A stretch of 51,130 nt of DNA from Planctomycetia bacterium. Its GTDB lineage: Bacteria; Planctomycetota; Planctomycetia; Pirellulales; UBA1268. A program made the position numbers and the translations under genes. Of this stretch, positions 34,851 through 34,866 are shown one piece after another; position 1 is the stretch's first letter, and each line of letters begins with the position of its first letter. The stretch spans positions 1 to 51,130 of the forward strand of contig JAIOPD010000080.1 of assembly GCA_021414115.1 (NCBI GenBank), read 5' to 3'. The notes under the pieces were generated by a model. That model was given only the letters and a program-made list of their open reading frames with translations. It made no database searches and was not told the DNA's origin.

Positions 34851-34866
34851 TGGCACGCGGAATGCA
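34851..34866 (+). promoter_or_regulatory. Sigma-54 (-24/-12) promoter of glnB
   Basis: TGGCACGCGGAATGCA matches the consensus TGGCACG-N4-TTGCA at every defined position except one T (A at the first base of the -12 box), with the correct spacing. The predicted start of transcription is near 34877, about 80 bases before the glnB ATG. GlnB under sigma-54 control is established in nitrogen regulation of proteobacteria. Confidence 0.75.

Follow-up and report, generated by a model that had tools for sequence, protein, structure and literature searches.

The stretch of DNA analysed here (the window; 51,130 nucleotides, contig JAIOPD010000080.1) comes from a planctomycete of the order Pirellulales. 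The phylum is borne out by 26 matches to the planctomycete domain PSD1, at least 24 of them above the cut-off, compared with none in 14 control genomes. The window encodes a PII signal protein of the GlnB/GlnK type (34960..35298, + strand; 112 aa). The assignment of this protein is based on a match to the Pfam P-II profile (PF00543, E = 5.6e-35) and on the T-loop residue Tyr51, which can be read from the sequence; GlnD is encoded in the same genome. An AGGAG motif read directly at 34949..34953 (+ strand) is the presumed ribosome-binding site. The protein scores below the curated equivalog cut-offs of both GlnB (163.6 vs 202 bits) and GlnK (153.8 vs 181 bits), and hence the name 'glnB' is only one of convenience. 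Directly downstream of the gene, head-to-tail repeats (GGCACGGGGCTGCCCGTGCCCCGAGAGCTGGACGTTCGCT) are present at 35345-35500.

A second gene on the same strand, at 27593..28987 (+), encodes a sigma-54 enhancer-binding protein composed of a degenerate receiver (residues 1-120), an AAA+ domain with a GAFTGA motif and a Fis-type helix-turn-helix (HTH). A sigma-54 activator with such an HTH had been placed here by the initial annotation, made from the sequence alone, and profile searches confirmed both the activator domain (PF00158, E = 2.1e-72) and HTH_8. Divergent from it, a gene for a SEC-C-motif-like protein (25238..27421, - strand; motif recognised by eye, not by profile) is a conserved neighbour of the activator gene.

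A PII paralogue, oriented convergently to leuA, is also present in the genome as two near-copies (L062 and L063; G000:C93 and C60). In relatives (L065 and L066), a sigma-54-like site, TGGCATGGCNTTTGCT, precedes the paralogous leuA-linked PII gene by 210-330 bp. Paralogous PII genes belong to a different clade, and no dyads of the type described below were found at them.

Promoter and upstream dyads of the PII gene

The PII gene is preceded by a sigma-54-type -24/-12 promoter, TGGCACGCGGAATGCA (34851..34866, + strand), recognised by direct reading and by its conservation in the family. Its letters, TGGCACG-CGGA-ATGCA, are those given by the initial annotation, with the GG of the -24 and the GC of the -12 element at the correct, fixed spacing and within near-consensus flanks; the -12 element has a single deviation from the consensus, A for T. 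The site is 94 bases from the ATG of the PII gene (34960). Transcription is predicted to start at about 34877, about 12 nt past the GC of the -12 element, which would give the gene a leader of 83 nt, close to the 80 or so bases estimated earlier. An overlapping -24/-12-like match, CGGCACGGATTTGGCA (34840..34855, + strand), also has correct GC spacing but is weaker (score 13.1 vs 17.0). Its conservation among relatives is not systematic, and it is probably not the main PII promoter.

Further upstream lie two predicted activator-binding dyads, neither assigned to a strand. The proximal one, CGTCGCGCCGGCGCGACA (34782..34799), agrees with 13 of 14 consensus positions and has as its core the perfect 16-bp palindrome GTCGCGCCGGCGCGAC (34783-34798), already noted in the initial annotation and borne out by direct reading. 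The distal dyad, CGTCGCGCCGGTGAAACA (34751..34768), is imperfect, with 11 of 14 positions. The sequence GTCGCGCCGG is seen again at 34752-34761, 31 bp upstream of the proximal copy, and the second half-site suspected near 34751 is thus real, being part of this weaker copy of the dyad. The 31 bp between the two dyads correspond to three helical turns, and 30-32 bp is a recurrent spacing in relatives.

The sequence of one window could not settle the case because these motifs are no commoner in it than expected by chance. With one mismatch allowed, the window holds two matches to the promoter pattern against 1.04 expected from shuffled sequence, and one match to the dyad against 2.81. Genome-wide, the pattern TGGCAYGN5TGCW gave 15 matches vs 19 for the reversed control, with no excess. 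It is conservation across relatives that led to both motifs being taken as real.

PII orthologues were gathered across the family, from 72 genomes, in 65 of which rpoN was detected, and 61 upstream regions were examined for the promoter. In 60 of these, a -24/-12 site lies 78-169 nt ahead of the ATG; the sites of L012 and L013 are weaker, of the CGGCATG type, and the single exception is the genome G023. Conservation in relatives was the check that the initial annotation had proposed for its own reading, and both promoter and dyads passed it. With a strong site in 60/61 same-family orthologues, the claim of a sigma-54 promoter for PII is supported, and the 34851 site is predicted from sequence to be a genuine one. 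The PII promoter regions of two genomes, G049 and G024 (L003 and L023), are almost identical even though G024 belongs to another genus; G024 also has a second, partial PII gene, and contamination of one of the two bins is probable.

The dyad consensus derived from the same-family PII promoters is TGTCRCR-N4-YGYGACA. At least 12 of its 14 positions are matched in 37 of 60 promoters, compared with 0.7 expected from shuffles, and the same half-sites separated by 3 or 5 bases occur in 0 and 2 promoters, respectively. A 2-base spacer was seen in 15 promoters, a count that appears attributable to overlapping GCGCC repeats. A fitted matrix, trained on the same promoters that were scanned, located dyad sites in 78 of 79 promoters of activator-bearing genomes, with at least two sites in 67 (two in 42, three in 25). 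Neighbouring dyads are preferentially 19-21, 30-32, 80-83 or 90-94 bp apart, in keeping with a 10.2-bp period (R = 0.67). When a single promoter was taken from each genus, R was 0.60, a value reached by none of 2000 jittered controls; the phasing test is independent of the training of the matrix because position was not fitted. Ten promoters fall under the strict dyad threshold, and in these one half-site is often well conserved, its partner being degenerate (CGCCTCA). The upstream palindromic site of the initial annotation is supported, as a set of putative enhancer-type dyads.

The activator and its association with the promoter

The GAFTGA motif of the 27593 protein, present as GxFTGA across relatives, places its AAA+ domain among those that interact with sigma-54. 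The recognition helix, PRGTLYRLMK, is nearly invariant across families, and the combination of HTH_8 with paired, phased upstream dyads (at least two in 67/79 promoters) is that of an enhancer-binding protein. As for autoregulation, no sigma-54 site or good dyad was found before the activator gene in 30 relatives.

The dyad consensus, fixed on one family, was applied unchanged to other families of the order. Among these, the PII promoter scored at least 11 for the dyad within 500 bp in all 19 cases where the genome had an orthologue of the activator, and in only 1 of 26 where the activator was absent. When the genomes were pooled, those bearing the activator had the promoter (score of at least 11) in 77 of 79 cases and the dyad at threshold in 69 of 79; in those lacking it, promoter and dyad were each found in 1 of 27 and never together. 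The genomes are related, and these counts are therefore not independent events. Activator, promoter and dyads co-occur across seven families of the order. A phylogenetically cleaner form of the association is provided by a tree of PII proteins, in which every sequence with promoter plus dyads falls within one clade (support 97/85; the tree is built on few columns and its bootstrap is not settled). Within this clade, the only members without promoter and dyads are those of G023, G086 and G088, all three from genomes without the activator. Most activator-less genomes are represented by another PII clade, leaving only three independent losses inside the relevant one.

The pattern makes it very probable that the 34851 site is the sigma-54 promoter of PII and that the 27593 activator binds the upstream dyads, as judged from sequence. 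An alternative, rated improbable, is that the promoter is indeed served by sigma-54 but its dyads are bound by a different activator, such as the canonical receiver-type, NtrC-like proteins L087 or L090. The genome has 13 strong AAA+ matches, and thus at least 12 other sigma-54 activator genes whose products could bind the dyads, and L087 and L090 surpass the 27593 protein on the NtrC profile (432 and 403 vs 355 bits). However, the 27593 orthologue, the only activator tested for co-occurrence, tracks promoter and dyads closely, losses included. Moreover, in three genomes of this genus (L145, L143 and L144), amtB is preceded by a near-perfect sigma-54 site, TGGCACGCGATTTGCM, yet not by PII-type dyads. 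A different activator therefore probably acts at amtB, and the 27593 activator seems not to be a regulator of nitrogen genes in general.

Fifteen top-scoring dyad loci of the genome were inspected for a sigma-54 site within 320 bp, which is present at PII alone; conversely, among 15 strong sigma-54 sites, a good dyad pair occurs only at PII. No second target was thus found among the loci examined. In the same genome, dnaK, groEL and a gene resembling those of small heat-shock proteins have strong sigma-54 sites ahead of them (L126, L133 and L129; G000:C10:44050, C54:22564 and C27:9492), and such sites are reported to be enriched at chaperone genes in the Planctomycetota (PMC12316311). Others precede genes that were recognised by eye as those of large surface-protein-like products, a PEP-CTERM-like protein and an ECF-sigma-like product (L124, L127, L132 and L135).

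Still less probable is a standard NtrB-NtrC circuit as in the Pseudomonadota, in which a phosphorylated regulator would activate PII under nitrogen limitation. In that phylum, PII is well known to be under sigma-54 control (PMC12316311), and the present genome has PII, GlnD, sigma-54 and an activator of the sigma-54 type. Against this, the 27593 protein and its same-family orthologues lack the residues of a phosphorylatable receiver (DD, D, T/S, K): the phosphoacceptor Asp55 is replaced by Thr or Ser in 20 of 20 aligned members of the window's family, none of which retains the second acidic residue, the Thr/Ser or the Lys. The 27593 protein scores 355.4 bits against the curated NtrC (NR I) cut-off of 558.6, which none of the scanned activators of the genome passes. 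The operator, TGTCRCR-N4-YGYGACA, is also unlike the NtrC site, TGCACC-N5-GGTGCA. Of the 'complete nitrogen control circuit' suggested by the initial annotation, the sigma-54 promoter, the dyads and a likely activator have stood; the rest has not, given that the activator is not NtrC, its receiver is dead and amtB is without the dyad.

For a receiver that has lost its phosphoacceptor Asp along with the rest of its catalytic residues, the usual kinase input is unlikely, and phosphorylation of the activator at the usual site, as judged from the alignment, is unlikely throughout the window's family. In other families, the receiver is found in intermediate states, with L263 retaining the Asp and Lys, and in the most distant homologues, L280 (same order) and L151, it is intact (DD, D, K). 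L151, from a record labelled Balneolaceae (Bacteroidota), adjoins a histidine kinase gene. Outside the order, L151 is the nearest homologue that was found (49%), and it may reflect transfer or misbinning. A structure model of the 27593 protein (mean pLDDT 81, pTM 0.53) has a receiver-like alternation of strands and helices in residues 1-103 and matches NtrX and NtrC1; its domain arrangement is not trusted.

Gene order and the apparent loss in G023

An orthologue of the activator was found in 68 of the 72 genomes of the family. As a rule it shares the strand of PII and lies upstream of it, in many of them as the adjacent gene; in several other families it is directly upstream of PII. In the window, the dyads are 6 kb from the activator gene and behind a divergent gene, other genes having come between activator and PII in this genus. 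PII is likewise distant from the activator in eight other genomes (L283-L286, L289 and L291-L293), which still have promoter and dyads. The dyads are inverted repeats and in many genomes follow closely on the stop codon of the activator gene, but the notion that they are terminator hairpins or repeats of that gene with no role in PII expression is very improbable, considering this separation in the window, their persistence with PII in the eight genomes and the phasing of their copies with the helix.

In G023, activator, promoter and dyads are all missing and PII is kept. The counterpart of the window's 25238-27421 gene adjoins PII directly, 240 bp apart, and no activator orthologue was found elsewhere in this genome (95% complete). 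The deletion is provisional because it rests on one metagenome assembly. Co-occurrence, conserved order and co-loss together argue for a dedicated activator-promoter-PII unit in the Planctomycetota and identify the 27593 protein, as initially supposed, as the likely activator. On this comparative evidence, activator and PII have been passed on together as a two-gene unit within part of one planctomycete order.

Proposed mechanism and relation to known systems

The promoter, the sites, their linkage, co-occurrence, co-loss and phasing, and the lost receiver residues are all read from sequence; binding, activation and any nitrogen response are proposed from them. The activator would bind two or more of the 18-bp sites (TGTCRCR-N4-YGYGACA), which lie on the same side of the DNA helix, and, once bound, would oligomerise. 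By looping of the intervening DNA, it would then contact sigma-54 polymerase at 34851, where its AAA+ ATPase, through the GAFTGA loop, would drive the opening of the promoter to which this polymerase is bound. Given the degenerate receiver, the switch is probably the amount of the activator, a ligand or a protein partner, and not phosphorylation. A more speculative proposal, considered unlikely at present, is that a former response regulator has lost phosphorylation and come under the control of a direct partner, perhaps PII itself, in a self-contained feedback loop replacing NtrB-NtrC. PII control of an unphosphorylated activator, AnfA, has been proposed in Rhodopseudomonas (PMC12093980), so that feedback by PII is an idea that can be tested.

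The sigma-54/NtrC-controlled PII genes of the Pseudomonadota (glnK-amtB and glnB) share with the present locus the -24/-12 promoter, paired upstream dyads, Tyr51 and GlnD. Here, however, the candidate activator is the product of a dedicated gene beside PII and not NtrC, its receiver is not phosphorylatable, the operator sequence is different and, in contrast to glnK-amtB, PII lies outside any operon with amtB. When the 27593 protein was compared on its own with the sequences of solved structures, FleQ was its best match. FleQ/FlrA-type proteins also combine a receiver-like domain unable to be phosphorylated with AAA+ and Fis HTH domains, and the FleQ receiver is phosphorylation-incompetent (PMC10723142); FleQ, though, is a regulator of flagella and biofilm that answers to c-di-GMP and FleN, whereas the linked target of the 27593 protein is PII. 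Domain order and fold, as modelled, appear to be shared with response regulators of the NtrC1/NtrX/ZraR family (structures 5m7p, 1ny5 and 4l4u), but these regulators have an intact receiver, in contrast to the window's family, where all four catalytic positions are changed. NifA and AnfA are likewise unphosphorylated sigma-54 activators with a functional link to PII, putative in the present case; they differ in having GAF domains and in controlling nitrogenase.

A survey across phyla found sigma-54-dependent PII mainly in the Pseudomonadota and limited conservation of NtrB/NtrC in the Planctomycetota (PMC12316311). In the searchable literature, outside which most subscription literature lies, no account was found of sigma-54 control of PII in planctomycetes or of this unit. 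Sigma-54 control of PII is thus known, and what appears to be new is the activator-promoter-PII unit in the Planctomycetota. PII control is little mapped outside the Pseudomonadota and cyanobacteria, and this locus offers a defined promoter, an operator and a candidate activator over several families, with a natural deletion as control. It poses the question of how an activator with a dead receiver is switched, and whether PII feeds back on it.
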